Below, piece after piece: positions 8,274 to 29,542 of a stretch of DNA of 32,278 nucleotides; the stretch's first letter is position 1; each line of letters starts with the position of its first letter. The DNA comes from Pirellulales bacterium (lineage in GTDB: Bacteria > Planctomycetota > Planctomycetia > Pirellulales > Lacipirellulaceae), in the NCBI GenBank assembly GCA_016930815.1, contig JAFGFZ010000024.1, positions 1-32,278 on the forward strand, read 5' to 3'. Below the pieces are notes generated by a model that saw only the letters and a list, made by a program, of their open reading frames with translations, made no database searches and was not told where the DNA came from. A program made the position numbers and the translations under genes.

Positions 8274-8287
8274 GGCACAGCTATTGC
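8274..8287 (+). promoter_or_regulatory. Sigma-54 (-24/-12) promoter P1
   Basis: GGCAC-N5-TTGC with the obligatory GG-N10-GC spacing, a near-perfect RpoN promoter. The predicted transcription start is about 8298, upstream of the small genes at 8470 and 8789. The paired enhancers lie at 8138-8183. Confidence 0.85.
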
Positions 8288-9355: not shown

Positions 9356-10720
9356 ATGAGATTAATACCTCAAAAGCAAATACGAGATGTCATCCTCGAT
9401 TCGATCGTCGATGGTGTTTTCACGGTTGACGAAAATTGGCGAATTACGTCCTTCAATCGTGCAGCCGAGGAGATCACCGGCGTGCCGAGCGAGGATGCGA
9501 TAGGTCAACGTTGCTCCGATGTTTTCCACGCCAGCATTTGCGAAAACGAGTGCGCACTGAAGGAAGCACTAGGTACCGGACACCCGATCATCTGCAAACC
9601 CATATACATTGTGAAAGCGGATGGTCACCGGGTTCCAGTGAGCATTTCAGCAACGGCTTTAAAAGACCAGAAAGGCTACGTGATTGGTGGTGTAGAAACC
9701 TTTCGTGATCTCACCGTGATTGAGCAACTGCGTAAGGAGTTGCAGGACAAGTACACATTTGCCGATATTGTCGCTCGAAGTTCGGAGATGCGCCGGATTC
9801 TGGATATCCTTCCCAGGTTGGCCGATAGTGATAGCACGGTACTGATCGAAGGGGCCAGCGGCACGGGCAAGGAGTTGGTTGCACGTGCTATCCATGACCT
9901 TTCACCCCGAAGTAAGAAGCGGTTCGTGGCCCTCAACTGCGGAGCACTTCCTGATACGCTCTTGGAATCCGAGCTGTTTGGCTACAAGGCTGGCGCGTTT
10001 ACCGATGCCAGGAAGGACAAACCCGGCCGGTTTGCTGCAGCTATGGGTGGGACAATCTTCCTGGATGAGATTAGCGATGTTTCACCTGCCATGCAATCTA
10101 AATTACTTCGTGTGTTGCAGGAGAGGGTATATGAACCTCTGGGATCTGTGGATCCGGTCGCCGCCAACGTACGGATCATTGCGGCAAGCAATCAAGACCT
10201 TGGCACGCTGGTCAAAAAAGGTGGTTTTCGGGAAGATCTCTTTTACCGTGTCAATGTCATGCAGATCCAGCTGCCACCGCTTCGCGACCGCCGGGAAGAT
10301 ATTCCTCTTCTAGTAGAGCATTTCGTTTCAAAGTTCAATCGGTTGCAGCAAAAGAACATAGCTGGCGTGTCAGAAGAAGTGATGGCGATACTGCTGGAAT
10401 ACGATTATCCGGGGAATATCCGCGAATTGGAGAATATCATCGAACATGCTTTTGTTCTCTGCCGTGGAGGACTGTTAAAACCAGCGCACTTGCCAACTAT
10501 CTTTCAAAACAGGTCACCATGGGAACCATTCGCGAGCGATAGAGAACTTACCTTGCGATCCCTGGTAAAAATGCACATAACAAATGCAATCCAACGACAT
10601 GGTGGGAACCGCAAGGCAGCAGCTAAAGGACTGGGCATTCACCCCAGTACATTATTCCGGAAGATCAAGTTATTGAACATTGAATTGCCGGAGAAAGATG
10701 GCCGCAGCAGGATTTTGTAG
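9356..10720 (+). CDS. Sigma-54-dependent activator with Cys-containing PAS domain (PAS-AAA+-Fis)
   Basis: A 454-residue enhancer-binding protein. Residues 10-125 form a PAS sensor with four cysteines (C53, C62, C66, C80); C62-x3-C66 lies in the segment ASICENECALKEA, common in one subgroup of these activators and possibly a redox or metal sensing site. The AAA+ domain has Walker A GASGTGKE (166-173), the sigma-54 contact loop GAFTDA (213-218, where most members have GAFTGA) and Walker B GGTIFLDEI. The C-terminus has a Fis-type helix-turn-helix (GNRKAAAKGLGIHPSTLFRKI). There is no receiver domain, so it senses directly rather than through phosphorylation. No clear ribosome site precedes the ATG, and I see no enhancer pair in front of this gene itself. 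Four sigma-54 promoters with matching enhancers lie within about 11 kb. Confidence 0.95.
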   Translation: MRLIPQKQIRDVILDSIVDGVFTVDENWRITSFNRAAEEITGVPSEDAIGQRCSDVFHASICENECALKEALGTGHPIICKPIYIVKADGHRVPVSISATALKDQKGYVIGGVETFRDLTVIEQLRKELQDKYTFADIVARSSEMRRILDILPRLADSDSTVLIEGASGTGKELVARAIHDLSPRSKKRFVALNCGALPDTLLESELFGYKAGAFTDARKDKPGRFAAAMGGTIFLDEISDVSPAMQSKLLRVLQERVYEPLGSVDPVAANVRIIAASNQDLGTLVKKGGFREDLFYRVNVMQIQLPPLRDRREDIPLLVEHFVSKFNRLQQKNIAGVSEEVMAILLEYDYPGNIRELENIIEHAFVLCRGGLLKPAHLPTIFQNRSPWEPFASDRELTLRSLVKMHITNAIQRHGGNRKAAAKGLGIHPSTLFRKIKLLNIELPEKDGRSRIL

Positions 10721-12246: not shown

Positions 12247-12441
12247 TTATTGTCGGGTCATTGGGGTTCCGCATTTTGGGCATGTTCTTTGGTTACAGGG
12301 CTGCCCGACAACATGGGGAACCTTATGGCCGCAGTTTGGACAAATGCAATTCCCGCCTGGCCCGGCGGCGAACTGACCGCGCATGCGACCGCCGCCGCGT
12401 CCGCCCCCCGCCGGTGGTCCTGATCCGTCACCACGTGGCAT
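12247..12441 (-). CDS. Small Gly-rich, four-Cys-pair-like protein (MPRGD type)
   Basis: A 64-residue protein. The first half is Gly/Arg-rich (MPRGDGSGPP...GGRGGGRMRG); the second half holds six cysteines in a CICPNCGH ... PCNQRTCPKCG pattern, suggesting a zinc ribbon or small iron-site fold. Proteins starting MPRGDxxGP are commonly encoded beside NifX/NifB-domain Mo-Fe cluster proteins in anaerobes, as here. The ATG at 12441 has an exceptional ribosome site, AAAGGAGGTGAT at 12446-12457, embedded in the 3' end of the nifX-like gene, which it overlaps by 14 bp. The biochemical function is unknown. Confidence 0.8.
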   Translation of the reverse strand: MPRGDGSGPPAGGGRGGGRMRGQFAAGPGGNCICPNCGHKVPHVVGQPCNQRTCPKCGTPMTRQ

Positions 12442-12856
12442 TGTTATCACCTCCTTTCATGATATCAACCTGTGGATTATTTTGCATTGGAGAGCCGCCA
12501 TGAGACCGTCGCCGCCGATGTCCGCAACTGCCCGGCATGAGGAAGGCCTGCTCGGTCAATTGTCCCGCCATGAACGCCCTCAGCACCTCTTCTACCTGCC
12601 CGCAGGTCTGCGGGATAACCTCCACTCCTGCCGATACTAGCGTGGCTTCCAGCGGTCGAGAGATCGCGCCACAGATCAGGATATTGGCGCCAAATTCGAC
12701 AATGCGCCGTGCCCGGAAAGTCGGTTCTGGCTCATCCATAATCTGCTCGGTCCGCCAGATCTCACGTCCGTTCTCGATATCTACCAACAACAGACGCCTG
12801 GCAGCATCGAAGACGGGAGAAATCCTGCCATCGCAAATTGGAATCGCAGCTCTCAT
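12428..12856 (-). CDS. NifX/NifB-domain protein (dinitrogenase iron-molybdenum cofactor family)
   Basis: A 142-residue protein whose first ~110 residues are the small Fe-Mo cofactor-binding domain (also MTH1175-like or orange-protein-like): MRAAIPICDGRISPVFDAARRLLLVDIENG at the start, then the GANILICGAIS segment and TCGQVEEVLRAFMAGQL. A basic His/Arg/Ser tail follows. No nif structural genes are present, so a role in nitrogen fixation is unlikely; stand-alone members bind metal or metal-sulfur clusters. The ATG at 12856 matches the family start. It lies only about 5 bases after the predicted start of sigma-54 promoter P2, and no ribosome site is visible, so the message may be almost leaderless. 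It is the first gene of a four-gene operon. Confidence 0.88.
   Translation of the reverse strand: MRAAIPICDGRISPVFDAARRLLLVDIENGREIWRTEQIMDEPEPTFRARRIVEFGANILICGAISRPLEATLVSAGVEVIPQTCGQVEEVLRAFMAGQLTEQAFLMPGSCGHRRRRSHGGSPMQNNPQVDIMKGGDNNATW
12446..12457 (-). promoter_or_regulatory. Full-length Shine-Dalgarno sequence
   Basis: AAAGGAGGTGAT matches the whole anti-Shine-Dalgarno stretch at the 3' end of bacterial 16S rRNA, 4 bases before the ATG at 12441. It lies inside the coding sequence of the upstream nifX-like gene. Confidence 0.85.
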
Positions 12857-12871
12857 AACCGGCCTATGATA

Positions 12872-12887
12872 GCAAAAGCTATGCCCA
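12872..12887 (-). promoter_or_regulatory. Sigma-54 (-24/-12) promoter P2
   Basis: On the minus strand, TGGGCAT-AGCTT-TTGC with GG-N10-GC spacing. It resembles promoter P1 closely (TGGGCAC-AGCTA-TTGC). The predicted start near 12861 falls just before the nifX-like ATG at 12856. Confidence 0.83.
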
Positions 12888-12976
12888 TTTGGGAATAACA
12901 ACCATCTCCAGACATAACCTCCATTGCAGTCATGAGTTGCGATGGTTGCACGTGGAACCAATGCAAGGTTTGAGCA

Positions 12977-13022
12977 TTGCATCGTGCAATTCATTGGCCC
13001 CATAAGGAATTGCGATCTGCAA
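12977..13022 (-). promoter_or_regulatory. Paired enhancer sites (UAS) for promoter P2
   Basis: TTGC-ATCGT-GCAA (12977-12989) and TTGC-GATCT-GCAA (13010-13022), both perfect TTGC-N5-GCAA palindromes with starts 33 bp apart. Their centres lie 110 and 143 bp upstream of the -12 G at 12873, matching the other three promoters to within 1 bp. Confidence 0.8.
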
Positions 13023-13274: not shown

Positions 13275-14687
13275 ATGAAGGCTTTAGACAAGAAATGCAT
13301 GACGACGAACATCGGATCGTCCATCATGGGGATTTCGATACTCTTTGGCAAACTTTTCAGCAGTCAGATAGCGGCTTTGATAACAATCAGCCTATTAATG
13401 GCCGCAAGACTCTGTCAAAATGGAACGGCAGCAACGCCAATGGACCAGGTAGCGGATCAGACGATCACGCTAGCTGAAGCTATCGAGATTTCACTAGCCA
13501 ATAATCCAGAGCTAGCCGCGAAGCGCTACGGAGTTGACGCAGCAAGGGCCGAGTATGACATAGCTGTTGGAGCACGTTTACCAGAGTTCTACTTACTGGG
13601 CAGGTATAATTATTATCGTGCGCCCAGGCTGATCCAGCCAAGACGACCTGGCACTTCCGAATCCTTGGCATTCACCGATGAGCTCCTTTCTGGAGACTTC
13701 GTCCTGACAATGCCGTTATACACAGGAGGACAACTTCGAAATCAGGTTATTGCCACTGATTTGATCACTCAGGCAAAATGGGAACGGCTCCTTTACAGTC
13801 GAGCCGAACTGGTATTTAACGTATCGAGTGTCTTTTACGCGATGCTCGGCCAGCATGAAGTGATTGCTTCACTGCAATTCTCGCAAAAGGCTCTGGAACA
13901 GCATCACAAAAAAACGCAGGAACTGCTCAATGCCCAAAAAGCCGCGCGAGTCGATCTGCTGAGAACCGAGGTCAGGCTTGCCGATATCCAACAGCAGCTG
14001 CTTCGCGAACGTAACGCGCTGGAAGTCCAGGGTTATTTACTTGCCAGTCTCCTCGGATTAGGCGGCAAAGAGGAACCTCTGGAGATTGAAGGCGAACTGA
14101 TGCTGATGGATGTTCCAGCCAATCTTGATCAGGCAATTGGAATAGCATTCGGCAACAGACAAGATTATCAATCTTTAAAATACGAAGTGCGCGCGCAGCA
14201 AACACAGGTCAACATAGCTAGAGGTAAACGGCTACCTGAACTTGCGCTTTATGCATCCTATGGAGATCGATGGGCTACAGATTCGAGCAAACACAATGAA
14301 GTTGGGGAAGTGGGGATGCTCTTCGATGTACCGCTTTTTGAAGGCGGGCGGATCAATGCGGGAATACGGCGGGAATATAGCCGTCTTGGAGCCCAACAGG
14401 AAGCATTGCGGGCTCTGGAGCTCAAAATTCAGTTAGAAGTGGAAACATCAATCTCCAATATTGAATCCACGCGCGCAAGAATCACCGTGACACAAAAAGC
14501 TGTCGAACAGGCGGAAGAATCGTTACGGATAGAGCGCGGTAAATATGATCAGGGCAAAGGGGCTATCGTAGACGTCCTGGACGCCCAGTCGGCCCTGTTG
14601 GATTCGCAGACGAATTATTACCGAGCCCTAGCGGAGTATAACACCGCCTTGGCCCAATTTCGGCTCGCCGTGGGTGAAAATGAATAA
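13275..14687 (+). CDS. TolC-family outer membrane efflux protein
   Basis: A 470-residue outer membrane factor that would form the exit duct of a tripartite pump. The N-terminus has a long, somewhat unusual leader (about 50 residues, with the hydrophobic segment QIAALITISLLMAARL). The mature part starts with the family motif ITLAEAIEISLANNPELA and contains two OEP repeats: one ending around the DFVLTMPLYTGGQL strand region, and a second with MLFDVPLFEGGRINAGI. Long alpha-hairpins and a C-terminal SQTNYYRALAEYNTALAQF complete it. GGGGGAG (13261-13267) lies 7 bases before the ATG. It precedes the adaptor and RND genes, but the 429-bp gap holds its own sigma-54 promoter, so tolC is probably transcribed separately. 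Confidence 0.9.
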   Translation: MKALDKKCMTTNIGSSIMGISILFGKLFSSQIAALITISLLMAARLCQNGTAATPMDQVADQTITLAEAIEISLANNPELAAKRYGVDAARAEYDIAVGARLPEFYLLGRYNYYRAPRLIQPRRPGTSESLAFTDELLSGDFVLTMPLYTGGQLRNQVIATDLITQAKWERLLYSRAELVFNVSSVFYAMLGQHEVIASLQFSQKALEQHHKKTQELLNAQKAARVDLLRTEVRLADIQQQLLRERNALEVQGYLLASLLGLGGKEEPLEIEGELMLMDVPANLDQAIGIAFGNRQDYQSLKYEVRAQQTQVNIARGKRLPELALYASYGDRWATDSSKHNEVGEVGMLFDVPLFEGGRINAGIRREYSRLGAQQEALRALELKIQLEVETSISNIESTRARITVTQKAVEQAEESLRIERGKYDQGKGAIVDVLDAQSALLDSQTNYYRALAEYNTALAQFRLAVGENE

Positions 14688-15116: not shown

Positions 15117-16931
15117 ATGAGGACAGCAAAATGTGTGTTGGCTGTCGCATGCCTTGGAATGGCCATGATGGGGTTGACGGGGTGTGGTCCGGACAAGAAA
15201 GAAGAGGGCAAAGCTAAGAAACCTCCCTTCGTTCAGGCCATCGCGGCGGAAAAAACACGCCTTGTCGAACTCCTGGAAACGACCGGGGATGTTGTGGCGG
15301 TAAACGCCGTGACGCTGCATGCTACTGTTGAGGGTCCAATCAGCTTTTGCCCTTGGCGGGAAGGTGACCGCGTCGAGCAAATAGGGCAGAAATTGATCGA
15401 GATCGATCGGCCGTTGTACCGGCAGGAGGTTTCGGCGGCCGAGGCGGCACTGGTTGTGGCCAAGGCCAAGTTGGCTGATCTCAAGGCCGGCGCCCGCCCG
15501 GAGGAGATCGCCCAGGCCAAGGAATCCGTCCGACATTTCGAGGATTGCACGAATTTTGCCAAGGCCGACTACGACCGGACCGCGTCGTTGGTCAAGAGCG
15601 GCGCACTTCCCCCGGAGGAGGTGGAAAAGGCACGTGTAAACTATGTCGAGTGTCAGACAAAGCTTGAGGCCGCAAAGGAACGGGTGGCCATGCTCGAAGC
15701 GGGACCAACGTTAACACAGATCGCCGTCGCGCAGGCCACCGTGGAGGAAGCGGCAGCCAAGCGGGACCTTGCTCAGGCGAAACTCGATGAATGCGTGCTC
15801 AAGGCGCCCTTTTCTGGAGTGATCACCGAGGTCCTTGTCCGTCCGGGGGACCTGGCCAGGCCACAAGCGCCATTGCTGAAGATGATGGATCCATCATCCC
15901 TGGTCGTGCGGGCCGGCCTGCCGGAAAGTTGCTCAGCTCACATCCGCGAAGGCACCGATGCGGACATCCGATTGGATGCATATCCGGGCAAGAAGTTGAG
16001 CGCTAGGATCGAGCGGATTTATCCTCGACTGGAATGGGACACTCGGACGCGGATTATCGAAGCTAGGGTCATTGATCCCGTGGAATTGATTCCCCATCTG
16101 TTTGCCCGCTTATGGGTGCGGGGCCGTGTCGTCGAGGATGCCGTGGCGGTCCCCGATGCGGCAATCGTGACCACACCAAGAGGCCATCGGGTCATTTACG
16201 TCGCCAAAGAGGGCAAGGCGCAAAGGCGAACGGTTACAATCGGGCTAGAAGAGGAAAATCGCGTACAGGTCATCGACGGTGTGCAGGTCGGCGAGATGGT
16301 GATCATTTCCGGGAACCTGAACCTCAAGGACGGGGCACAGGTGCGATTGGGAAAGCCACCGGCAAGTATAAAAAACAATCTCGCGCAAAAAGGCCCGGGG
16401 CTCATCGCGAAAGATCAATTAGCGCAAAACAATCCGGGATCCAATCCTAAAAGCAAGCACCCACAAGAAGGATCTGTCGATGGCAAAACGGGCTTACAAC
16501 GAATCATGTTTCAGAATAAATTCCCAGTGCGATTGAGGGAATACAACAAGGACCAACTGGAATTTCGCACACTGGATGAAGTCTGCCAATACTTCCACGA
16601 TGAAATCGAAAAACACCCATTCGCGCGCTACATCGGTACATTTGATCATTATTCTCATACCATGGGCCTGAAGGATCGCGTTGTTGATCCCAGCATTATC
16701 GGCGCTAAAAACATCATTTTCTGTTTTGGCAAAATACTCGAGAGCCCCGAAACGTTGTCGGTGCGGCCAAGGTCAATCGGTGTATGTGAAACGGAATCGC
16801 AGTGGATTATCTCGTTCCTTGAAGCACCATCGCCTGTCGCGACCGAGACAATGGAACGATGGGTTCTCGAGGCGATGAAGCCAACTCCAAACGCTGGAAG
16901 CAAGCAATCGCCGGGAGGTGAAAGTCCATGA
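15117..16931 (+). CDS. RND efflux periplasmic adaptor (HlyD/MFP lipoprotein) with extra C-terminal domain
   Basis: A 604-residue membrane fusion protein, far longer than the usual 350-420. It is probably a lipoprotein: signal sequence with lipobox LTGC (C23). Then come a biotinyl-lipoyl-like half-motif, a long coiled-coil hairpin (about residues 105-215), the second lipoyl half (LKAPFSGVITEVLVRPGDLA), a beta-barrel and a membrane-proximal domain ending near residue 415. A low-complexity linker (about 415-462) leads to an extra domain at 464-590 (MFQNKFPVRLREYNKDQLEF, GTFDHYSHTMGL, NIIFCFGK, RPRSIGVCETE) that resembles small stand-alone proteins I believe are annotated DUF6858. AGGAG lies 7 bases before the ATG. 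It overlaps the RND gene by 4 bp and is driven by sigma-54 promoter P3. Confidence 0.9.
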   Translation: MRTAKCVLAVACLGMAMMGLTGCGPDKKEEGKAKKPPFVQAIAAEKTRLVELLETTGDVVAVNAVTLHATVEGPISFCPWREGDRVEQIGQKLIEIDRPLYRQEVSAAEAALVVAKAKLADLKAGARPEEIAQAKESVRHFEDCTNFAKADYDRTASLVKSGALPPEEVEKARVNYVECQTKLEAAKERVAMLEAGPTLTQIAVAQATVEEAAAKRDLAQAKLDECVLKAPFSGVITEVLVRPGDLARPQAPLLKMMDPSSLVVRAGLPESCSAHIREGTDADIRLDAYPGKKLSARIERIYPRLEWDTRTRIIEARVIDPVELIPHLFARLWVRGRVVEDAVAVPDAAIVTTPRGHRVIYVAKEGKAQRRTVTIGLEEENRVQVIDGVQVGEMVIISGNLNLKDGAQVRLGKPPASIKNNLAQKGPGLIAKDQLAQNNPGSNPKSKHPQEGSVDGKTGLQRIMFQNKFPVRLREYNKDQLEFRTLDEVCQYFHDEIEKHPFARYIGTFDHYSHTMGLKDRVVDPSIIGAKNIIFCFGKILESPETLSVRPRSIGVCETESQWIISFLEAPSPVATETMERWVLEAMKPTPNAGSKQSPGGESP

Positions 16932-19900
16932 AGATCACCGCCCTTGCGCTGAAACGGCCCGTGGCCGTCACCGTGCTTACAATCGCGGCCTTGGCGGCTG
17001 GATTGTTTAGCCTGTCGCAGCTTGACGTGAACTATCTGCCAGACATTTCCTACCCGATGGTGAAGATTCACGTCTGGTGGCGCGGGGCGACGGCAGATGA
17101 CATCGAGAACAACGTCGCCGATCCTTTGGAGGAAGTGATTGCCACGGTAGATGACCTCGATTACCTCGAGTCCTCCAGCATCGAAGGCATGTACACGCTG
17201 TTGGCGAATTTTTTCTATGGCGTGGATGTGGAGGTGGCCTTTCAGGATGTGGTAGCCGCCATGGGCCGAGTCACGAAAAATTTGCCCCGCGATATGGATC
17301 CTCCAGTGATCATTAAGGCCGACCCATCCCAATTGCCGGTGGTCGAGATTATGATCACATCCGACAAACACGATCTCGTGTGGCTTCGCACGTGGGCGGA
17401 AGAGTGGCTCATCGATCGCCTGGCGGCCGTGCCGGGCACGGCCGGCGCCGAGATCGTTGGTGGACTAGAACGGGAAATCCGCGTCCACCTCGACCCAGAA
17501 CGGCTTCAAGCCCACAAGCTATCGCCCGACCAGGTGGCCAAGGTATTGCACGAGGAGAATATCGAGACCTTCGCTGGAAGGGTTACCATCGAGCCGCGAG
17601 AAATCATTGCCCGGACGATGGGCGAATTCGAGAATATCGAGGAAATCGAGCAAGTTGTCGTCGCGATCGGACCGAAGGGTGAGAAAGTCTACGTCAAAGA
17701 CATCGCCCGCGTGGAAGACTCGCATGCCGAGATGCGAATCAACACCCATTTGAACGGTCGGCCCTGCATCGAGTTCAAGGTCCTCAAACAGTATGCCGCC
17801 AACGCGGTCACGGTTGCTGAGGGTGTCAAGGCTCGGATGGCCGAGTTGCAGGCGCGAGGAGACATCCCCGAAGACATCCATTTCGACTATGTCGAGGATG
17901 ACGGCCTCTATGTGATGAACGCCATCAATGGCGTAAGGGATTCGGCGATTCTGTCCGCCGTGCTCGTCGTCATCGTGGTATACCTCTTCCTGGGGCGATG
18001 GCGTCAAGTGATTGTGATGATCGTCGCGCTTCCGGTCACGCTATTGGCCAACTTCGCCGTGATGAGCGCGGCCGATTTTTCTATCAATGTCTTTTCTTTA
18101 GGAGGGCTGGTGGTTGCGCTGGGTGTTATTTTGGATAACTCGATCGTCGTCCTGGAAAACATTACACGATTGAAGGCTGAGGGTGTGCACGATTACGCCC
18201 AACGCGGCACGCAGGAGGTTGGTTCTGCGATCGTCGCCGCCACCCTTACGTTCCTTGCGATCTTCATGCCGTTCGTCTTCGTGCCGGGCATGGTGGCCGT
18301 CCTGCTCAAAGAGCTCGTCTTCGTCGTAGGCGGGGTTGTGGTCATCTCGCTATTAATCGCGCTGACTTTCACTCCCCTCTTCACCGACAGGCTTTTGCGA
18401 CACGAAACGTCTGGGCAAATTTCCAAAATCGCGAGGATCTTCGAACGTATTATTGGATTTGGAATCCGCATCTATCAGCGACTGCTGAACGGCTGCCTCC
18501 GCGTCAAGTGGCTGGTCATATTTCTCGCGCTGGCAATATTTGGTTTGGGTGTCTTGTTGGCCAGTCGCGCCGGTACGGAATTTTTACCTAAGCTGGACGA
18601 CGGTCGTGTCATGGTGAAACTCATCATGCCCAGTGGCTCCTCCGTCTCCGAGGTGGATCGCATTCTGACGCGGGTCGAAGATCGGCTCCGGGACTTGCCC
18701 GAAATCGATACCATGTTCCGACTCGCCGGCGGTAGAGTTTTTGGATTGTATACCCTTGAGGTAGGTAATGAGGGCAACCTGGACATTCAACTTATGCCGC
18801 GAAGCAAGCGGAACATTACCACAGCCCAGTTTGTCGAGAAAATCAGGCCCTGGGTGACAAAAATCCAAGCGGATGAACCAGGTGCCAAACTGCCTGTGAA
18901 GCCAAGACCGATCAAGGGTCTACGCAAGGTAGGTGAGCAGGATGTTGAAGTGAACATCAAGGGAAGTGACGTCGTCGTGCTGTTTGAATTCGCCGAAAAG
19001 TTGGCAGCGCAACTCAACCAGACGCCAGGGCTGTCAGGCGTCAACATATCGATGGACATGACCAAACCGGAGTACCGCGTGTACGTGGACCGCGCCCGTG
19101 CATCGGCTATGGGAATTTCTGTCAACCAAGTCGCTAATACAATGCGAGCTCAGGTCCACGGCGTGGTGGGAACCGAATACCGCGAGGGCGTTGAGTATTA
19201 TCCAATTCGGGTTATGGTGCCAGAGATTACGCTCGCGAGCAAGGCGGATCTTGAAAACCTGATCATCCAGACCCATAGCGAGCCGGTCTATCTGCGGGAT
19301 ATCGCCGAGGTCCGCCGCGCTGTAGGTCCCGTGGAGATCTCCCGCGAGGATCAAGTGGTAAGGGTGATTGTCCGCGCCGATCCATCTGGAGTCAGCGTGG
19401 GGGAGGCTCTCGCCCGGGCCGAACAGGCTGCCATCGCTTTGGATCCACCCTCAGGCGTCGAGATATCCATGGGCAGCGAAGCCCGATTCATGGAAGAAAG
19501 TCGGCGGGTTGTAGGGTTGATCATTGGCTTCGCTATCCTCTTTGCCTACGTTATCTTGGCCATCCAGTACGAGTCCTTTATCCTGCCTTTCCTTATTATT
19601 CTGAACGTTCCGTTGGCTCTAACCGGGGCACTCCTCGCCCTCTTTCTCGTGAACGCGTCGGTCAGCGTAACCGTGCAGATCGGCATCCTCGTCATGATGG
19701 GCGGCATCACATCACAGGGTGTGGTTCTGTTGACATTGGCTGAGCAGTATCGCCAAGCCGGGATGTCTTCCCTGGAAGCCATTCGCAAGGCGGCTCCAAC
19801 CCGCGTTCGCCCCATCTTGATGACCCAATTGACCACGGTGCTAGGGCTGATCCCCCTGGCAATGAACCTCGGCGAGGAGGGCGGCATGCTGGTGACGATG

Positions 19901-19993
19901 GCCGTCGCCGTGATCGGCGGTCTGCTCTACTCGCTGTTATTGACGTTGTTGTTTCTTCCAGCGGCGTATGGATTGGTCCGTTTCAGGCATTGA
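16928..19993 (+). CDS. RND-family efflux transporter (AcrB/HAE-like)
   Basis: A 1021-residue inner-membrane proton-driven pump of the normal length. It starts with ALKRPVAVTVLTIAALAAG (first helix) and shows two large periplasmic loops and two six-helix bundles. TM4 carries LGGLVVALGVILDNSIVVLENI with D403; the following residue is Asn where AcrB has a second Asp, a common variant in non-AcrB RND pumps. Short NxLPD-like and PxxY-like motifs (DVNYLPDISYPMVKI) match heavy-metal and drug exporters alike, so the substrate is open. A good GGAGGTG ribosome site lies inside the 3' end of the adaptor gene, and the ATGA overlap implies coupled translation. Together with the adaptor and TolC it forms a complete tripartite pump, probably under sigma-54 control. 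Confidence 0.95.
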   Translation: MKITALALKRPVAVTVLTIAALAAGLFSLSQLDVNYLPDISYPMVKIHVWWRGATADDIENNVADPLEEVIATVDDLDYLESSSIEGMYTLLANFFYGVDVEVAFQDVVAAMGRVTKNLPRDMDPPVIIKADPSQLPVVEIMITSDKHDLVWLRTWAEEWLIDRLAAVPGTAGAEIVGGLEREIRVHLDPERLQAHKLSPDQVAKVLHEENIETFAGRVTIEPREIIARTMGEFENIEEIEQVVVAIGPKGEKVYVKDIARVEDSHAEMRINTHLNGRPCIEFKVLKQYAANAVTVAEGVKARMAELQARGDIPEDIHFDYVEDDGLYVMNAINGVRDSAILSAVLVVIVVYLFLGRWRQVIVMIVALPVTLLANFAVMSAADFSINVFSLGGLVVALGVILDNSIVVLENITRLKAEGVHDYAQRGTQEVGSAIVAATLTFLAIFMPFVFVPGMVAVLLKELVFVVGGVVVISLLIALTFTPLFTDRLLRHETSGQISKIARIFERIIGFGIRIYQRLLNGCLRVKWLVIFLALAIFGLGVLLASRAGTEFLPKLDDGRVMVKLIMPSGSSVSEVDRILTRVEDRLRDLPEIDTMFRLAGGRVFGLYTLEVGNEGNLDIQLMPRSKRNITTAQFVEKIRPWVTKIQADEPGAKLPVKPRPIKGLRKVGEQDVEVNIKGSDVVVLFEFAEKLAAQLNQTPGLSGVNISMDMTKPEYRVYVDRARASAMGISVNQVANTMRAQVHGVVGTEYREGVEYYPIRVMVPEITLASKADLENLIIQTHSEPVYLRDIAEVRRAVGPVEISREDQVVRVIVRADPSGVSVGEALARAEQAAIALDPPSGVEISMGSEARFMEESRRVVGLIIGFAILFAYVILAIQYESFILPFLIILNVPLALTGALLALFLVNASVSVTVQIGILVMMGGITSQGVVLLTLAEQYRQAGMSSLEAIRKAAPTRVRPILMTQLTTVLGLIPLAMNLGEEGGMLVTMAVAVIGGLLYSLLLTLLFLPAAYGLVRFRH

Positions 19994-20860: not shown

Positions 20861-21083
20861 TCCAAAGAAACCAGGATAATATAACGTTTATGTAATATAA
20901 ATATAAAGTTATATGGTGGCTTGGTTCGATAAATTTCGTATGTCGGCGAGAATGCCATGTCATGGCCAGAGGGATACCGACAGCTAAAAAAGGTTGTTGT
21001 CCCAGAGGGCAATTGAGATTGATCTTTCTTGGCAAGCCTTTTTTCCATTTCAAATATGTTACCTAGCAAGCAGGGCGCAGACT
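20861..21083. other. AT-rich spacer with inverted repeat ATATAAC / GTTATAT
   Basis: The spacer between the P4 enhancers and the next plus-strand gene contains a very AT-rich block with a 7-bp inverted repeat (20879-20885 and 20908-20914). It could hold the promoter of the thioredoxin-like gene at 21084, but I see no well-spaced -35/-10 pair that I can defend. Confidence 0.3.
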
Positions 21084-21707
21084 ATGACCAATATCCTCAT
21101 GGCAATCTCTGTAGGGATTTCCGCTCTTGGAGCCGACCAGCCGGATTTCAACCAAGCTTATCGTCAAAGCTTGGCAAGCGGGCGCCCGCTAGTCGTATTG
21201 ATCGGCGCGGACTGGTGTCCCGGCTGTCAAACGATGAAGAACTCGGTCCTGCCGCAAGTTGCCAAATCCGGCGGGCTGGAAAAGGTTGTTTTCATCTATG
21301 TTGATTACGATCAGCAGCGGCAGCTCGCCTCCCATCTGAAGTGCGCAACTTCCATTCCCCAGTTGATCCGATTCGATCAGACACCCACGGGATGGAAAAG
21401 CCAATGCCTTGTTGGAGCGAAGAGTCCTCTGGAAGTCTATAACTTCATTAATTCGGGATTTATCAAAAAAAAAGAGGTAAGCAAAGTCTCGTCCACGCAT
21501 CTATCCGGAGACACTTTTTACAGGCCATCTGTGGCTAAAACCCCCACATTAGTAACAACCGCTTCAGCATCACAAACCACATCCTCGGTGGATGTCCCAC
21601 CACTTCGCGGGCACATGGTTCGTTCCCCACCCGTGAGAAAAACAGGCTGGTTTTCTAACAACTGGATGGTGCTTCAAAAAACTTTTCCCGAAAAGAAGCC
21701 AGATTAA
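21084..21707 (+). CDS. Exported thioredoxin-like protein (CPGC)
   Basis: A 207-residue protein with a short signal-like N-terminus (MTNILMAISVGISALGA). The thioredoxin-fold domain shows LIGADWCPGCQTM (C45, C48) and the cis-proline segment TSIPQLIRF. From about residue 135 on there is a Ser/Thr/Pro-rich tail of unknown role without motifs. The frame is open from 20994, but the ATG at 21084 gives the signal peptide and follows an AGGG about 10 bases upstream. It is the first of a plus-strand run with cytoplasmic thioredoxin and DsbD, so it may be a periplasmic thiol protein kept reduced by DsbD. The spacer to the next gene (21708-21888) shows no other feature. Confidence 0.8.
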   Translation: MTNILMAISVGISALGADQPDFNQAYRQSLASGRPLVVLIGADWCPGCQTMKNSVLPQVAKSGGLEKVVFIYVDYDQQRQLASHLKCATSIPQLIRFDQTPTGWKSQCLVGAKSPLEVYNFINSGFIKKKEVSKVSSTHLSGDTFYRPSVAKTPTLVTTASASQTTSSVDVPPLRGHMVRSPPVRKTGWFSNNWMVLQKTFPEKKPD

Positions 21708-21888
21708 TGGGAAAAAATGTCCATTTGGGCAGATACATGGGGGAAAAGGTGTTATTTGATGAATCGCGAGAAACGAATCAACAATAACTTCCTCTTTTTC
21801 TATCTCCTTTGCTGCCTCCCCGGCCGGGTGAAATGAGACCTGGAGAATTCGTTTTGAGTTGTTCCTTCAATCCAAGGAGTCTGAATCC

Positions 21889-22215
21889 ATGTCAAATGTC
21901 TATAAACTCTCGGAGCATAATTTCAGAAAGGAAGTCTTGATGTCTTCCATACCCACGCTCGTCGATTTCTGGGCGCCTTGGTGTGCTCCCTGCCGGGCTG
22001 TTGGCCCGATCGTCGAGCAATTGGCGGCCGAGCGAGGGAACTCCGTCAAGGTGGCCAAACTCAACGTCGATGAAGCTCCTGACGTGGCAGCCGCGTACGC
22101 AATCCACAGTATCCCCACTTTGATCATCTTCAAGGATGGGAAAATCGTTCATCGTTTCATAGGCGTTCGGTCCAAGGTGGAACTGGAACTCGCACTCGAT
22201 CGGATCGCGGCTTGA
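21889..22215 (+). CDS. trxA: Thioredoxin with CAPC active site
   Basis: A 108-residue thioredoxin of standard length: LVDFWAPWCAPCRAVGP (C32-A-P-C35), then KLNVDEAPDVAAAYAIHSIPTLIIFKDG with cis-Pro and the IGVRSK region. The active site is CAPC rather than the canonical CGPC. This variant occurs naturally and usually changes redox potential little, but it may reflect a special partner. AAGGAG (21874-21879) lies 9 bases before the chosen ATG; the frame opens earlier at 21859. It precedes dsbD by 31 bp and would donate electrons from the cytoplasm to DsbD. Confidence 0.92.
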   Translation: MSNVYKLSEHNFRKEVLMSSIPTLVDFWAPWCAPCRAVGPIVEQLAAERGNSVKVAKLNVDEAPDVAAAYAIHSIPTLIIFKDGKIVHRFIGVRSKVELELALDRIAA

Positions 22216-22246
22216 TGATCCCTTCTTTCCGAAGGAGCCTAATTCC

Positions 22247-24286
22247 ATGAAAGGATTATATCTGCGCCCCATTTTGGCGATTGCTTTCTCCATTGGCGTG
22301 ATGATCGTGGTGATGATCCCGTCATCGAAGGCCGGGGTCGAGGAACTCTTTGCCCAGCAAGCTGAAAAGGAAATTGTTTCGGTCACTGCGGAGTTTACCG
22401 CCTCAAAAGCTAATCAACCGGGACAGCTCTCGATCACGGCCCAAATTGAGCCGTCGTGGCATATCTACTCGATCACTCAGTTGCCAGGAGGCCCGCTTCC
22501 TACGGAAATCAAGCTCCGTTCTACCGACGCATTCCACCAGGTGGGTGACATCCGTGCCGAGCCGCTTCCCGACAGAAGAAGAGAGCCAGCGTTTGATAAC
22601 CTGGTTGTTGAGACGCATCACGACAGAGTCACGTGGCACATTCCCATTGCGATTGCCTCTGGTGTGGACTTAGATTCGCTGACCGTCGAGGGACTTCTTC
22701 GTTTTCAGTCCTGCAATCTTGAAAATTGTCTTCCCCCGAAAAGTCTCCCTTTCACGGCAAGGCTGGCACGGAACGCGGTATTGCCGACCGAGGGTTCCAT
22801 GTCGATGGCCTTGCGAGAGCCTGAGGGTTTGCAAGCGACGGCCCCGAAAGCTCCACTTGCCAGTCCCGGGCCCATCAGGCCCGATACGCTGGAAATCGCC
22901 ACCCACAATGAATTGGAACAGACTTCAATGGCCGTGATCTTGGGCCTTGGTTTTCTAGGGGGTTTGATCCTCAACCTTATGCCATGTGTATTGCCCGTGA
23001 TTGGCCTGAAGATCCTCTCGTTTCTCCAGCAGGCCGGCCAAAGTCAACGCCGCGCGCTGGCGCTGAATGTCTGGTATTCACTCGGTCTACTTACAGTATT
23101 CATCGTGCTGGCCACCTTGGCCGTTTTCTGTAACATGGGCTGGGGGCAGTTATTCAGCATGACGCGATTCAACGTGATACTGGCGGCCGTCGTTTTCGTT
23201 ATGAGCTTGAGCCTGCTCGGCGTATGGGATATCCCAATTCCTGGCTTGTTTGGTAGCGGCAAAGCGAATCATTTGTCCGAGCGCGAGGGCGCCATCGGCG
23301 CGTTCTGCAAGGGTGTACTGACCACCATCCTGGCTACGCCATGCAGTGGTCCTTTTCTTGCTTCCGCGTTGGCTTGGGCGGTCGGACGGCCACCCATTGA
23401 AAGCTATGCTGTATTCATTGCAGTGGGAATTGGCATGGCCAGCCCCTATTTGCTCATAGGCGCGTTTCCCAAGCTCATCCGCTTCCTGCCGAAACCAGGC
23501 CCCTGGATGGATACGTTCAAACAGGTCATGGGCTTTGTGTTGCTTGGCACCGTGGCCTATCTTCTGACGCTGATTCCATGGGCATCCATCGTCCCAACTG
23601 TCACGTTCCTATTCGGTCTCTGGGCGGCCTGTTGGTGGATCGGCCGGACACCGCTGACGTCGGAATTCCATCACAAGGCCCGAGCATGGCTTTCGGCGGC
23701 TGCGTTGACTGGTGTGGTCTGGTTGATTAGCTTCGCTTGGTTAGCGGAAGTCACTGCAGCCCGTTTCGAGCACACACTCCAAACCGCCTGCGGCAATATG
23801 GTCAACCATAAGGCAAGTCGAAGCAAGGATGAACTGACGTGGCGCCCGTTCTCTCGCAAAATCTTTGACGAATTGACTGCCACGCAAACCACCGTCATGG
23901 TCGATTTCACGGCCGACTGGTGCATGACCTGTAAGACCCTGGAAAAGTTCGTATTGAACACACCTCGTATTTGCAATGCGGTGCGGCAACATGGCGTGGC
24001 GACCTTGCGAGCAGACTGGACACACGCGTCACCGGAGGTAACCCAGATGCTGGAAATATTAGGAAGTAAGCAAGTGCCTGTGATTGCTATTTTCCCCGCC
24101 GGACGGGCAAACCGCCCCATTATCCTTCGCGGTAGCTATACTCATGAAATGCTTCTCGGAGCCCTGGACAAAGCCAGCCGTTATGTGTCTCGACAAACCC
24201 GCCCGCAACCGACTAGACTCTCTACACGGGGACCTTCGCCTAACTCCGTGTCCAATGAACGAACGGCTCCTTCAGGTCTTCTATAA
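22247..24286 (+). CDS. dsbD: Thiol:disulfide interchange protein DsbD
   Basis: A 679-residue protein with the complete three-domain DsbD plan. A signal peptide is followed by an N-terminal alpha domain whose cysteines are C156 and C161 (SCNLENCLPP). The membrane beta domain of about eight helices carries the redox cysteines C247 (LNLMPCVLPV) and C366 (ATPCSGPF). The C-terminal gamma thioredoxin domain has DWCMTCK (C559, C562). It carries reducing power from cytoplasmic thioredoxin to periplasmic thiol proteins. AAGGAG lies 9 bases before the ATG. The adjacent trxA and the exported thioredoxin-like gene are its likely donor and client. A short proline/serine-rich tail follows the gamma domain. 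Confidence 0.95.
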   Translation: MKGLYLRPILAIAFSIGVMIVVMIPSSKAGVEELFAQQAEKEIVSVTAEFTASKANQPGQLSITAQIEPSWHIYSITQLPGGPLPTEIKLRSTDAFHQVGDIRAEPLPDRRREPAFDNLVVETHHDRVTWHIPIAIASGVDLDSLTVEGLLRFQSCNLENCLPPKSLPFTARLARNAVLPTEGSMSMALREPEGLQATAPKAPLASPGPIRPDTLEIATHNELEQTSMAVILGLGFLGGLILNLMPCVLPVIGLKILSFLQQAGQSQRRALALNVWYSLGLLTVFIVLATLAVFCNMGWGQLFSMTRFNVILAAVVFVMSLSLLGVWDIPIPGLFGSGKANHLSEREGAIGAFCKGVLTTILATPCSGPFLASALAWAVGRPPIESYAVFIAVGIGMASPYLLIGAFPKLIRFLPKPGPWMDTFKQVMGFVLLGTVAYLLTLIPWASIVPTVTFLFGLWAACWWIGRTPLTSEFHHKARAWLSAAALTGVVWLISFAWLAEVTAARFEHTLQTACGNMVNHKASRSKDELTWRPFSRKIFDELTATQTTVMVDFTADWCMTCKTLEKFVLNTPRICNAVRQHGVATLRADWTHASPEVTQMLEILGSKQVPVIAIFPAGRANRPIILRGSYTHEMLLGALDKASRYVSRQTRPQPTRLSTRGPSPNSVSNERTAPSGLL

Positions 24287-24360
24287 ATAAATCTACTGTA
24301 GCCCGACTAGAAATCCGGGAAACGGACGGAACCGCCCCCTCAAAAAGTAGTGAGACATCG

Positions 24361-25545
24361 ATGGCCTATCTACGGCGTCTATCCAAAGTGCAATGGGGCT
24401 GGCTCATTGGGAGCCTGATCATTGGGGCCGTAATCGTGTCGGTCGGGTGGATTCTGGAGCCGAGTGGCAACTCAGAGATCCCCTCTTTTACGACGTCGAT
24501 GAGCATTCGGGACATCGCTCCAAAACTCGGTGTTACCGGCAAGTCGTTGGCCCGTGAGTTTGGGCTACCGCTCGATGTGCCGAAGGGGAAATCGCTTGAT
24601 AAGCTGGGCATCGCCCAGGATAATCTCGACCACGTCGCCGAGCACCTCATCGAGCACCAATCTGGTCCGCTGAAGTATTACATCTTTTCGGCGTTGGTTT
24701 TGTTGGGGCTTGTCTTCCTCGTTCGTCTGGGGCGGCCCGACGGATCTTCGAACGCCGAACGAAAGACTTGGTATCCCCGCTGGCCCTATGTCGTCGCGCT
24801 CGTGCTTGCGGTAGCGGTTTGCGGATTCGCATTGGGCAAGTCCCCGAACCCGATGGAAAGCGCCGTCAAGGTGTTCAAGTCCATGGTTGGGCTCTACCCT
24901 TCGGTCTGGGAAAAGGTCGCCGCGCTGGTCTTCTTCCTGGCGCTGGCGATTGTCGGGAACAAGCTGGTATGCGGCTGGGCATGCCCTTTCGGGGCCTTGC
25001 AGGAACTGCTCTGGAGCCTCCCGCTTTTCAGGAAGATCAAACGCCGGAAGGTTCCCTTTCTGGTCTCCAATACCATCCGCTTCACTCTTTTCGCAGTGAT
25101 GTTGCTGCTGCTATTTGGTGTTCTCGGTGGGCGTAAAGGCTTTGTCGTCTATCATAGCATCAATCCTTTCAACCTTTTCAACTTCGAGTTCGAAGAACTG
25201 CCCGTCGTCATCACCATCCTTGCCGCGTCTATCTTAGCCCTCTTGATCTATCGCCCCTTTTGCCAATTTATCTGCCCGTTTGGACTGATCTCGTGGCTAG
25301 CCGAGCGATTCAGCCTGGCGAGGATTCGGATTGACCCGAACCGGTGCAACCAGTGCGGTGCTTGCTCGCGAGCGTGCCCGCTCGATGCCGCCAAGGATCG
25401 CGTGGCCGGAAAGTTCCTCGCCGCGGACTGCTACAGTTGTGCCCGCTGTCTGAACGTCTGTCCGCACGAGGCGATTTCCTATCGTTTCTTGCAGATCAGC
25501 CAGCTACAGAGCGATATGGAAATTTCCCAAGCCCCGCGGAAATAG
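24361..25545 (+). CDS. NapH/NosR-like membrane polyferredoxin (two [4Fe-4S] clusters)
   Basis: A 394-residue membrane protein with roughly five to six hydrophobic segments. Two CxxxCP motifs typical of the NapH/NosR/CcoG group are present (CGWACPFG at 204-208 and CQFICPFG at 301-305). The C-terminus has two ferredoxin motifs: C329-x2-C332-x2-C335-x3-C339 and C357-x2-C360-x2-C363-x3-C367. Between the first two helices is a soluble segment (TTSMSIRDIAPKLGVTGKSL...LGI) found in several membrane Fe-S and FMN-linked proteins. The role is probably electron transfer between quinol and a periplasmic or cytoplasmic partner, unidentified here. It follows dsbD by 74 bp. Confidence 0.88.
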   Translation: MAYLRRLSKVQWGWLIGSLIIGAVIVSVGWILEPSGNSEIPSFTTSMSIRDIAPKLGVTGKSLAREFGLPLDVPKGKSLDKLGIAQDNLDHVAEHLIEHQSGPLKYYIFSALVLLGLVFLVRLGRPDGSSNAERKTWYPRWPYVVALVLAVAVCGFALGKSPNPMESAVKVFKSMVGLYPSVWEKVAALVFFLALAIVGNKLVCGWACPFGALQELLWSLPLFRKIKRRKVPFLVSNTIRFTLFAVMLLLLFGVLGGRKGFVVYHSINPFNLFNFEFEELPVVITILAASILALLIYRPFCQFICPFGLISWLAERFSLARIRIDPNRCNQCGACSRACPLDAAKDRVAGKFLAADCYSCARCLNVCPHEAISYRFLQISQLQSDMEISQAPRK

Positions 25546-25611
25546 GCCGGTTTCAATATTCCTTGCAGTTTCAATGGATCGCATCATGCGATTGTCCCTT
25601 CTTCTAGCAAT

Positions 25612-26406
25612 ATGATGAAGTTGCTTATTGCCTCAGTGGTTATTTTTTTGATCGCTCTCCTTGGCACGATGGCTGGGCGCGGTGGCGGTAATTTCTACGT
25701 GCCAGCCCTCGTGGCAACGGGCCAACCGATGCATCAGGCAGCAACAACGGGACAGTTGATCCTCTTATTGACAGCCTCCGCGGGAATGCTCGTGTTTCAA
25801 AAACATGGACTCGTGGATTGGAAGCTTGCAATGGTCATTGATCCCCCCACGGACGTGATGGCGTTCGTAGGGGGTTCTTTGGCGCACATCGTTCCCGAAG
25901 TTCTGCTGAAATTTGTGCTTGCCGGACTCCTTGTCATTGCTGGATTTTTGATGTTAATGAAAGCCAAGGAAAGGCCGATCCCGCGAAACAAGCGTTTTGG
26001 ATTCTGGTATCGTTGCTTTGACAACCATGAATACGTCGTTAACCTTTGGCTAGCCATCCCTATTGCCGCTGCAACCGGTTTGGCAGCAGGTGCCGTGGGG
26101 ATCTCGGGCGGATCGTTCAAAGTACCTCTGATGGTGCTCCTTTGCGGTGTCCCCATGCGGATCGCGGTGGCGACTTCCTCCGCCATGGTCGCCGTGACTG
26201 CACTGATGGGATTCATCGGGCACACCATCAGCGGTGATTTTTATCCGAGTCAGGCCGTGCCGCTGGCTTGTGTGGCCATGGTGGGTGGTCTCATCGGCGC
26301 AAAGCTAGCGGTGAAAGCCAAGCCGCATCATTTGAAACAGTTATTTGCTTGGACGACCTTTGCCGCGGCGGTTTTCATGATCATCAATGCAGGACTTTCG
26401 AAATAG
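25612..26406 (+). CDS. TSUP-family membrane permease (sulfite/sulfonate exporter type)
   Basis: A 264-residue membrane protein with about eight hydrophobic helices in two related halves. The halves begin LGTMAGRGGGNFYVPAL and AAGAVGISGGSFKVPLM, the glycine-rich duplicated motif of the TauE/SafE (TSUP) family. Family members export or import sulfite, thiosulfate, sulfoacetate or similar anions; the substrate cannot be read here. No ribosome site precedes the two adjacent ATG codons at 25612 and 25615. It follows the polyferredoxin by 66 bp on the same strand. Confidence 0.88.
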   Translation: MMKLLIASVVIFLIALLGTMAGRGGGNFYVPALVATGQPMHQAATTGQLILLLTASAGMLVFQKHGLVDWKLAMVIDPPTDVMAFVGGSLAHIVPEVLLKFVLAGLLVIAGFLMLMKAKERPIPRNKRFGFWYRCFDNHEYVVNLWLAIPIAAATGLAAGAVGISGGSFKVPLMVLLCGVPMRIAVATSSAMVAVTALMGFIGHTISGDFYPSQAVPLACVAMVGGLIGAKLAVKAKPHHLKQLFAWTTFAAAVFMIINAGLSK

Positions 26407-26504
26407 GGCAATCCATGAAAGTATTTGCAATTCTTCGATGGGCACAAGAGACAGCCGCAGATGGTTCATCAAGCCAAAACCTCATCCATAGGGGAAAGTG
26501 AACG

Positions 26505-26957
26505 ATGCATATTTACCAAGTAAAAAATGTGTGGCAACATGGTCGAGAGTGCCTTATCCATGCCAGAGAAAATCCCGATCTGAATGTGGCAGCGCCGCCC
26601 GAGTTCGGTGGCCCGGAAGGCGTATGGTCACCCGAGGAACTTCTTGTCGCTTCCGTGGATTCCTGTCTTCTGAGTACCTTTCTTTTTTTTGCGGACCGGT
26701 CCGGGCTTCCATTGGAATCCTATTCGAGTATATCCACCGGCAGGATGGAGAAAACTTCCGAAGGCCTCCGGTTCACGGGTATCGATGTCTCGATTGCCGT
26801 TACGGTATCGGCTGAGGTAACGACAGAAAGAATCGCCTCGCTACGACTAAAAGAGAAGGTGGAAAAGTATTGCCCCGTATCAGCTTCGCTCAACTGTCCC
26901 GTCCATCTCGATCTGGAAATAATTCCCAGGGCTGGAGCACAGGGCAGGAGTGTGTAA
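26505..26957 (+). CDS. OsmC/Ohr-family protein
   Basis: A 150-residue OsmC-fold protein with the characteristic sequence VWSPEELLVASVDSCLLSTFL (C54) and the second cysteine region KYCPVSASLNCPVHLDLEI (C123, C131). OsmC and Ohr proteins reduce organic hydroperoxides by a two-cysteine mechanism; some YhfA-type members have no known role. A GGGGAAAG before the ATG (spacing about 5) is a possible ribosome site. It neighbours the TSUP permease and lies upstream of the YggS-type gene, fitting the redox/sulfur theme of this region. Confidence 0.88.
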   Translation: MHIYQVKNVWQHGRECLIHARENPDLNVAAPPEFGGPEGVWSPEELLVASVDSCLLSTFLFFADRSGLPLESYSSISTGRMEKTSEGLRFTGIDVSIAVTVSAEVTTERIASLRLKEKVEKYCPVSASLNCPVHLDLEIIPRAGAQGRSV

Positions 26958-27772: not shown

Positions 27773-29542
27773 TTACCGGGCTGGATGGCTGTCAGAGCCC
27801 TTCGGATCCAAATTCTGGCGGGCGCGTTGGTGTCGATGCGGCGTTGGCACGACACGCTTTCGGATCACCTTTTCATAGGGCCACATGGCAATGCCGCCGT
27901 CCATCACCCGAACCTTTTCGAATTGAGCCGCCTTGAGGATCAGAGCGCCCTCGTATCCCCGGAGCGAGACCTGGCAGAAAGCAACGATTTCTTTGTCTTT
28001 AGGTAACTCACCCAACCGCTCGCGAAGCGTTCCAAGGGGGATCAAGGTTGAGCCGGGCAGTTGCACCTCTTCATACTCGGCCGGACTACGGAGATCCAAA
28101 AGGATGAAATCCTCGTTGGCTTCCATCATCTGATGGACTTCCTGCGGTGGTACTCCAATCATGGTGCCGTCGAGCTTATTCCTAGCCACGTTGGCGGCGG
28201 TGATGATATTGTCCATGGCGGGCGCGTAGGGCGGGGCATAGCATAAGTCGACATGGGCAAGTTGGTCGACAGTCATCCCCGCAAGAATGGCCATGGCCGC
28301 GACGTCGATGCGTTTGTCACCTGTTCCTGGTCCAACAGCCTGGGCGCCAAGAAGCCGTCTGCTCTTGCTATCAACGACAAGCTTTAACAAGAGGGACGCC
28401 GCATTCGGCATGTAGTGGGCCCGATCCGGCCCCGGTACCATGGCCATGGCGACTTCGTAGCCTAGTTTTCTGGCGGCAGTCTCGGTCAGCCCCGTTCTGG
28501 CCACGCAATAATCGAACACCTTGCAGACCGTGCTTCCCAAAACACCCGGGAACGTATCCTCGCCACCGCAGATGTTGATCGCGGCGACTCGGCCGTGTTT
28601 GTTCGCTGTTGAGCCGAGGGGTACGAAGCAGGGCTGGCCCGTGATCAAGTCGATCGACTCGACGCAATCGCCGACCGCGTAGATATCCGGATCAGAAGTC
28701 CGCATGTGACTATTGACCTTGATCGCGCCAGTCGATCCGATCTCCAAGCCTGCGTCTTTGGCGAGTTTGACATTTGGGCGAATGCCAACCGCAAGGACCA
28801 CCATGTCGGCGGGAATGGTCCCCTGGGTGGTCACCACCGCGTTCACATGGCCATCCCCCTGAAACGAGAGAACTTTGCAGTCGGTCAAAACCTTGACACC
28901 GTGCGACTCCATGTGTTTCTCAACCAACCTGGCCATTTCCCAGTCAAGGATATTTAGCAATTGTGGGAGCATTTCCACAATGGTCACGCGGCAACCCGCA
29001 TGAACCAGTGCTTCGGTGGTTTCCACCCCGATCAGTCCGCCGCCGACAATGACCACATCCTGGGCCTTCCCCTGCGATAGGACTTCCCGAATTCCTTCGG
29101 CGTCATGCACCCCATGCAGCTTGAAGATTCCTCCCAATGCCACGTTGGGAATCGGTGGCACGACCGGCGTGCCTCCCGTGGCCAAAACAAGCTTGTCGTA
29201 GTCCAACCAGGATTCGTTGCCCTTCGTCAGAGCTTGAACGCGGATACGCTTCGCGGCGCGGTCAATTTCCAAGGCCTCCGTCTGATTCATCACATGAACG
29301 TTCTTGACTTTGCGAAAGAAGACCGGATCGCGGACCACGCCGACGGGGGTGGATAAGAGTTCTTTCTGCTCCTTGACGACACCGGAGACATAGTACGGCA
29401 ATCCGCAGCCGGCATAGGATAGGAGCGTCCCCTTTTCAACAATGGTAACCTCCGCGTCCGCCATGAGTCGGATCACTTTTGAGGCTGTCTTGGGGCCGGC
29501 AGCAACGCCACCGATGATTACCGTCTTTAGGGGTTCGGGCAT
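27773..29542 (-). CDS. CoA-disulfide reductase / rhodanese fusion (CoADR-RHD)
   Basis: A 589-residue two-domain flavoprotein. The N-terminal pyridine nucleotide-disulfide oxidoreductase domain has two Rossmann folds (VIIGGVAAG and VIVGGGLIG), the single redox cysteine C46 in SYAGCGLPYYVSG that defines the CoADR group, AVGDC, and the C-terminal DLCYAPPYAPAMD tyrosines. From about residue 470 a rhodanese domain carries the catalytic C523 in CQVSLRGYEG. These fusions reduce CoA disulfide, CoA persulfide or polysulfide with NAD(P)H. A basic, His/Arg-rich tail (~25 residues) is extra. AAGGA about 10 bases upstream of the ATG is the ribosome site. Confidence 0.95.
   Translation of the reverse strand: MPEPLKTVIIGGVAAGPKTASKVIRLMADAEVTIVEKGTLLSYAGCGLPYYVSGVVKEQKELLSTPVGVVRDPVFFRKVKNVHVMNQTEALEIDRAAKRIRVQALTKGNESWLDYDKLVLATGGTPVVPPIPNVALGGIFKLHGVHDAEGIREVLSQGKAQDVVIVGGGLIGVETTEALVHAGCRVTIVEMLPQLLNILDWEMARLVEKHMESHGVKVLTDCKVLSFQGDGHVNAVVTTQGTIPADMVVLAVGIRPNVKLAKDAGLEIGSTGAIKVNSHMRTSDPDIYAVGDCVESIDLITGQPCFVPLGSTANKHGRVAAINICGGEDTFPGVLGSTVCKVFDYCVARTGLTETAARKLGYEVAMAMVPGPDRAHYMPNAASLLLKLVVDSKSRRLLGAQAVGPGTGDKRIDVAAMAILAGMTVDQLAHVDLCYAPPYAPAMDNIITAANVARNKLDGTMIGVPPQEVHQMMEANEDFILLDLRSPAEYEEVQLPGSTLIPLGTLRERLGELPKDKEIVAFCQVSLRGYEGALILKAAQFEKVRVMDGGIAMWPYEKVIRKRVVPTPHRHQRARQNLDPKGSDSHPAR

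Follow-up and report, generated by a model that had tools for sequence, protein, structure and literature searches.

A DUF6858 domain fused to the C-terminus of an RND efflux adaptor in a Pirellulales bacterium and its possible role in ligand handling

The stretch of DNA analyzed here (the window) comprises 32,278 nucleotides from a Pirellulales bacterium and carries the genes of an RND tripartite pump. A TolC-type outer-membrane factor (13275..14687), a periplasmic adaptor (15117..16931), and an RND permease of 1021 aa (16928..19993) are encoded on the forward strand, and the start of the permease gene overlaps the stop of the adaptor gene by four bases (ATGA). As in AcrAB-TolC, MexAB-OprM, and CusCBA, an OEP, a HlyD-type adaptor, and an ACR_tran permease are encoded together, whereas the pump of the window differs from those systems by an extra domain on its adaptor. 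Before the pump genes, a PAS-containing sigma-54 activator, similar to the one at 12823-14160 of the related locus L098, is located at 9356..10720 on the forward strand, and a NifX/Nitro_FeMo-Co-like protein, the start of which was re-assigned by comparison with L098, is encoded at 12428..12856 on the reverse strand. Downstream of the pump genes lies a forward-strand run of thiol and sulfur genes (20994..26957) encoding two thioredoxin-like proteins, a DsbD-like protein, a 4Fe-4S membrane protein, TauE/SafE, and OsmC. Moreover, a CoA-disulfide-reductase-like protein, whose rhodanese-like C-terminus was read by eye, is encoded at 27773..29542 on the reverse strand.

The permease scored under the cut-offs of all named NCBIfam subfamilies. 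In this protein and its L098 orthologue, LDN and SQG replace D407/D408 and the K940 motif of AcrB, respectively. These replacements suggest an unusual energy coupling in the RND clade of this pump.

The adaptor is a lipoprotein of 604 aa encoded in one intact frame, with matches in both Pfam and NCBIfam. It begins with a hydrophobic N-terminus read as a signal peptide that ends in a lipobox (LTGC, Cys23; 15117..15185), which would anchor the protein on the periplasmic side. The adaptor core (residues 24-412; 15186..16352), delimited by Pfam and NCBIfam matches and by orthologue comparison, was matched by HlyD_D23 and HlyD_3 in the Pfam profile search. The score of the adaptor against the NCBIfam family RND_mfp (TIGR01730) was 183 bits at a cut-off of 94.9, and together with the lipobox recognized in the sequence and the neighboring OEP and ACR_tran genes, this places the adaptor in that family. 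The core is followed by a low-complexity linker of approximately 48 residues (residues 413-460; 16353..16496), delimited by its composition and by low confidence in the full-length model, then by a DUF6858 domain (residues 461-585; 16497..16871), and finally by a tail (residues 586-604; 16872..16931, stop included) that holds the ribosome-binding site of the RND gene. The domain matched PF21651 with an E-value of 6.4e-46 and 156 bits, compared with a gathering cut-off of 27, and the match covered positions 2-126 of the 129-position profile. Accordingly, the assignment of residues 464-590 to DUF6858 in the first-pass annotation was correct, and all three motifs quoted there were found; the domain contains FDHYSHT, AKNIIFCFGK, and RPRSIGV. 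The physical fusion of this family to an RND adaptor was likewise borne out by the single 604-aa frame. Two details were revised: Pfam placed the domain start at 16497, three codons upstream of the 16506 given earlier, and the linker described as rich in Ala, Gln, Pro, and Lys was confirmed for Pro and Lys but not for Ala and Gln, its most frequent residues being Lys, Pro, Gly, and Asn.

The first-pass annotation had named an assembly error at the junction and separate production of the C-terminal part as alternatives, and the junction was evaluated in several ways. Codon statistics favored frame 0 within the DUF6858 domain and did so weakly in the linker. At 16480, an ATG outside the reading frame is accompanied by a Shine-Dalgarno-like site, and a one-base shift, arising by a deletion or by a sequence error, would turn this ATG into the start of a separate gene; yet equally strong off-frame sites are expected by chance at 0.13 per 60 nt in genes of the source genome. 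A frameshift joining two genes through this ATG was rejected, as such sites are too frequent by chance and as an independent fusion in a second genome (G991) excludes it in practice. An internal start that yields the domain on its own would be the in-frame ATG at 16506, but its ribosome-binding site is weak, its residue is Val in G991, and a product beginning there would lose part of beta-strand 1 of the predicted model. Given the codon statistics, the chance rate of off-frame sites, and the second fusion, an assembly or sequencing error is very unlikely; the in-frame fusion is genuine, and an internal start is an equally remote prospect.

In the case of G991, a genome of the same order and another family, DUF6858 was found in an RND adaptor of 575 aa as residues 437-563, C-terminal again and behind a charged linker of 39 residues. 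The recurrence of the fusion in one open frame there contradicts the assembly-error account. The fused adaptor gene of G991 adjoins an RND permease gene, and the gene order is reversed relative to the window, with the RND gene first. At 65% identity, the two DUF6858 domains pair as sisters in the tree (99/92), while the adaptor cores share 25% identity and the permeases 26%. Two different adaptors thus carry DUF6858 C-terminally. This reflects either transfer of the domain from one adaptor to another or two separate fusion events, and under both histories the fused arrangement was retained with every family motif intact.

The placement of the window in Planctomycetota is supported by 23 PSCyt2 genes in a genome of the same family. 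DUF6858 is rare in planctomycetes. Among overlapping samples of 392, 60, 397, 39, 397, and 119 genomes, six were positive (G000, G127, G746, G770, G825, and G991), and their DUF6858 copies formed one clade (100/99). The domain is encoded by a separate gene in four of them (G127, G746, G770, and G825). In support of the first-pass annotation, the stand-alone gene lies next to genes belonging to the orthologous pump in three of these four genomes, G127, G746, and G770; the contig of the fourth stops short of that point. The run in G127 consists of a sigma-54 activator, a small lipoprotein, thioredoxin, DUF6858, and an ACR3-like transporter with CBS domains, after which come TolC, USP, adaptor, RND, and OsmC genes. 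In G746 and G770, DUF6858 lies directly 3' of the RND gene and is followed by the ACR3-like-CBS gene, behind which G746 also has TauE-like and CoA-disulfide-reductase-like genes. G825 shows activator, thioredoxin, DUF6858, and ACR3-CBS genes before its contig ends.

These pumps are orthologous. The G746 permease is 78% identical to that of the window, and the adaptor core orthologues of G127 and G746 are 68-72% identical. The adaptor genes of G127, G746, and G624 share the ATGA overlap with the RND gene, and their products terminate within about 20 residues past the core. As the permease of G624 is 84% identical to that of the window and no DUF6858 was detected in this MAG (76% complete), the pump can probably do without DUF6858, and the two are not obligatorily linked. 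The G624 locus (L138 and L139), which holds the pump closest to that of the window, also has genes for the activator, thioredoxin, TolC, USP, and the adaptor, the last being split by contig ends. Adaptors from the window's own family were considered as evidence on the junction, but at approximately 31% identity to the window adaptor among the matches listed, they were uninformative. Since a different class has adaptors of 68-72% identity and the top matches listed from the same family reach about 31%, the pump locus has probably spread horizontally. Two further pumps were also observed. The window's own genome has another adaptor-RND pair from this clade (L099, 6788-11574); its adaptor is 46% identical, and DUF6858 is absent. 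In G658, a more distant pump operon with an adaptor about 50% identical (L142, 5991-13201) is flanked by a gene for an exported thioredoxin-like protein and one for a DsbD/CcdA-like protein, which again gives this pump clade a thiol-redox context.

Outside planctomycetes, 64 loci were found in the genome collection, mostly in Campylobacterota and also in Chlorobiaceae and Rhodobacteraceae. These proteins carry the same domain and motifs at full length; they are about 130 aa long and, unlike the window protein, unfused in every one of the 64 loci with a complete frame, the frames of a few being broken by ambiguous bases or contig ends. As none of the stand-alone copies checked has a signal peptide, the usual compartment of the family appears to be the cytosol, and the periplasmic placement in the fusion would represent a change of compartment relative to these signal-less relatives. 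This bears on the possibility that neighboring operon genes simply merged and that the domain is tolerated on the periplasmic side with no job to do. Adaptor and DUF6858 do share an operon in relatives, and the missing signal peptides would suit a domain that arrived there by accident; but a second, unrelated adaptor bears DUF6858 at its C-terminus with all family motifs kept, and such a passive merger is regarded as highly doubtful.

With regard to gene neighborhoods, an SQR-like oxidoreductase occurred in 8 of 60 DUF6858 neighborhoods and SLAC1 in 6 of 60 (raw counts), and in most Campylobacterota the neighbors were lineage-specific genes with no obvious sulfur link. In seven Chlorobiaceae loci (L004, L017, L018, L025, L046, L051, and L063), DUF6858 lies near a Nitro_FeMo-Co/NifX-like gene, and some of these loci also have an SBF/ACR3-like transporter. 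The occurrence of both kinds of gene in Chlorobiaceae and planctomycete loci suggests a module shared across phyla.

The motifs F(D/E)(H/Q/N)..(H/Q)T, (F/L)CFG, and RPR were present in all 52 DUF6858 sequences, including that of the window, and the Cys of the FCFG motif was invariant. An AlphaFold2 model of the domain built from 47 family members gave a confident alpha/beta fold with a mean pLDDT of 93.6. Its top match in the PDB was a DUF302 structure (1q9u), with a Foldseek probability of 1.00, a TM score of 0.56, and an E-value of 2e-3. Comparison of DUF6858 by hhalign with a DUF302 profile, made from 13 sequences of DUF6858-bearing genomes, was co-linear but weak (P = 6e-4, probability 29%). 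DUF302 (PF03625) resembles DUF6858 in predicted fold, in a co-linear profile, and in its occurrence in sulfur oxidizers, but its conserved motifs differ. Filing DUF6858 within DUF302 was rejected: PF03625 did not match the window protein at E-values up to 1, a listing of matches to the 47 members at E-values up to 10 gave 24 families, DUF302 not among them, and the likeness is one of predicted fold only. No significant sequence relatives of DUF6858 were found in the PDB, and a viral fold library gave no useful match. In the full-length AlphaFold2 model of the fusion, the adaptor part was plausible, and the linker and DUF6858 part had pLDDT values below 50 because the alignment had no rows there; this model was thus uninformative as a guide to domain contacts.

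Published work describes DUF302 genes within sox clusters (PMC5037610, PMC11034169) and within an sqr operon of a cyanobacterium (PMC5061849). Within the DUF6858-bearing genomes, DUF302 members were read from sequence as cytosolic, exported, and lipoprotein forms; thus, a periplasmic role is feasible for such a fold. DUF6858 could itself be a small DUF302-like catalyst that alters a sulfur compound before export, the fusion bringing the enzyme to the mouth of the pump. Its strongly conserved polar residues (FDH..HT, the K in AKN, and RPR) and the DUF302 proteins of sox clusters would agree with catalysis, but DUF302 is given no established function in those two papers and no catalytic motif is known, which makes an enzymatic role rather improbable.

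A closer parallel to the fused adaptor is offered by SilB of Cupriavidus metallidurans, an RND adaptor with a metal-chaperoning CusF-like domain at its C-terminus (Bersch et al. 2011, reviewed in PMC4446572). In both proteins, the adaptor is extended by a C-terminal accessory domain whose family also stands alone in such systems. In SilB, the CusF-like domain forms a small Ag/Cu-binding beta-barrel, whereas DUF6858 has a different alpha/beta fold and relatives that lack signal peptides. As its C-terminal domain is DUF6858, the adaptor of the window is not of the CusF type, and it may work in a SilB-like manner. By analogy with SilB, the tethered DUF6858 is proposed to be an accessory ligand-handling domain on the adaptor of a genuine fusion, a reading to which we assign a probability of about 0.5. 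The flexible linker would tether the domain to the adaptor C-terminus at the periplasmic face of the inner membrane, and as this end of the adaptor would be near the permease, the domain would sit at the pump entrance. There, it might capture the pump substrate, or a thiol or sulfur signal tied to the substrate, and pass what it has captured on to the adaptor and permease, much in the way that SilB uses its CusF-like domain for silver and copper. The periplasmic location, the ligand binding, and the sulfur or thiol nature of the ligand are what we infer in this proposal.

The gene neighbors point to a probable role in thiol or sulfur stress. Thiol and sulfur chemistry is proposed from the thioredoxin, DsbD/CcdA-like, OsmC, TauE, CoA-disulfide-reductase-like, SQR-like, and SLAC1 neighbors. 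Thioredoxin occurs at the loci of the window, G127, G746, G624, G825, and G658; DsbD/CcdA-like genes occur at the window and G658, OsmC at the window and G127, and TauE together with CoA-disulfide reductase at the window and G746. A more specific version, in which DUF6858 is a carrier or chaperone of reactive sulfur species (sulfide, persulfide, or polysulfide) exported by the RND pump, with this carrier fused to the adaptor, and in which the stand-alone protein plays an equivalent part in the cytosol of sulfur-oxidizing bacteria, is considered unlikely. The invariant Cys in 52 of 52 sequences, the thioredoxin and DsbD/CcdA-like neighbors, and the thioredoxin in the same operon as stand-alone copies would also suit a sensor or gate, through which DUF6858 reports the redox or sulfide state by that Cys and regulates pump assembly or activity. 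This Cys lies within a predicted beta-strand and may be structural, and a second conserved cysteine was not seen; a sensor is therefore held to be somewhat unlikely, and ligand handling by the tethered domain remains the preferred reading.

No mention of DUF6858 was found in the literature searched. C-terminal accessory domains on RND adaptors are already known, and as far as we checked, DUF6858 and its likely chemistry are new in that position. The two fusions to unrelated adaptors and the operon linkage in planctomycetes provide the first concrete handle on the role of DUF6858 and suggest that the family works with RND tripartite pumps. Should the fused domain handle a ligand, the SilB principle of building such a domain into the adaptor would apply to more than metal pumps and to more than the CusF fold.

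The pump operon had also been described as part of a sigma-54 regulon, and this was supported in relatives. The interval from the activator gene to the thioredoxin operon holds a perfect TGGCAC-N5-TTGC in L145 and L140 and a version of this site with a single mismatch in L098. Paired palindromes (GCGCAT and TTTGCGCAAA types) precede each of the three sites, the promoters with their enhancer-like pairs spanning 1789-2250 in L140, 2080-2764 in L145, and 10925-11172 in L098. This layout is consistent with sigma-54 control that depends on enhancers. The operon behind the sigma-54-type site has DUF6858 after thioredoxin in L098 and L145; in G746, whose contigs L140 and L129 are not joined, DUF6858 stands after the RND gene, at the distal end of the pump gene run. 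In the window itself, neither TolC (13275) nor the adaptor was found to be preceded by a -24/-12 site, so that sigma-54 control of the pump operon is supported for the relatives rather than for the window. As counts of -24/-12 sites in the whole window were not above chance, only the position of a site relative to genes and palindromes is informative. A -24/-12-like site (GGGCATAGCTTTTGC; 12872..12886, reverse strand) precedes the NifX-like gene, and the palindrome ATTGCATCGTGCAAT (12976..12990) may be an enhancer for the sigma-54 activator. Palindromes of the ATTGCA/TGCAAT type occur in the window at 8171 and 12977, each about 90-100 bases before a -24/-12-like site (regions 8171-8287 and 12872-12990), one of the resulting pairs lying before ORF 8573 and the other before the NifX-like gene. 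The two pairs may define a small regulon of sigma-54 next to the pump operon.
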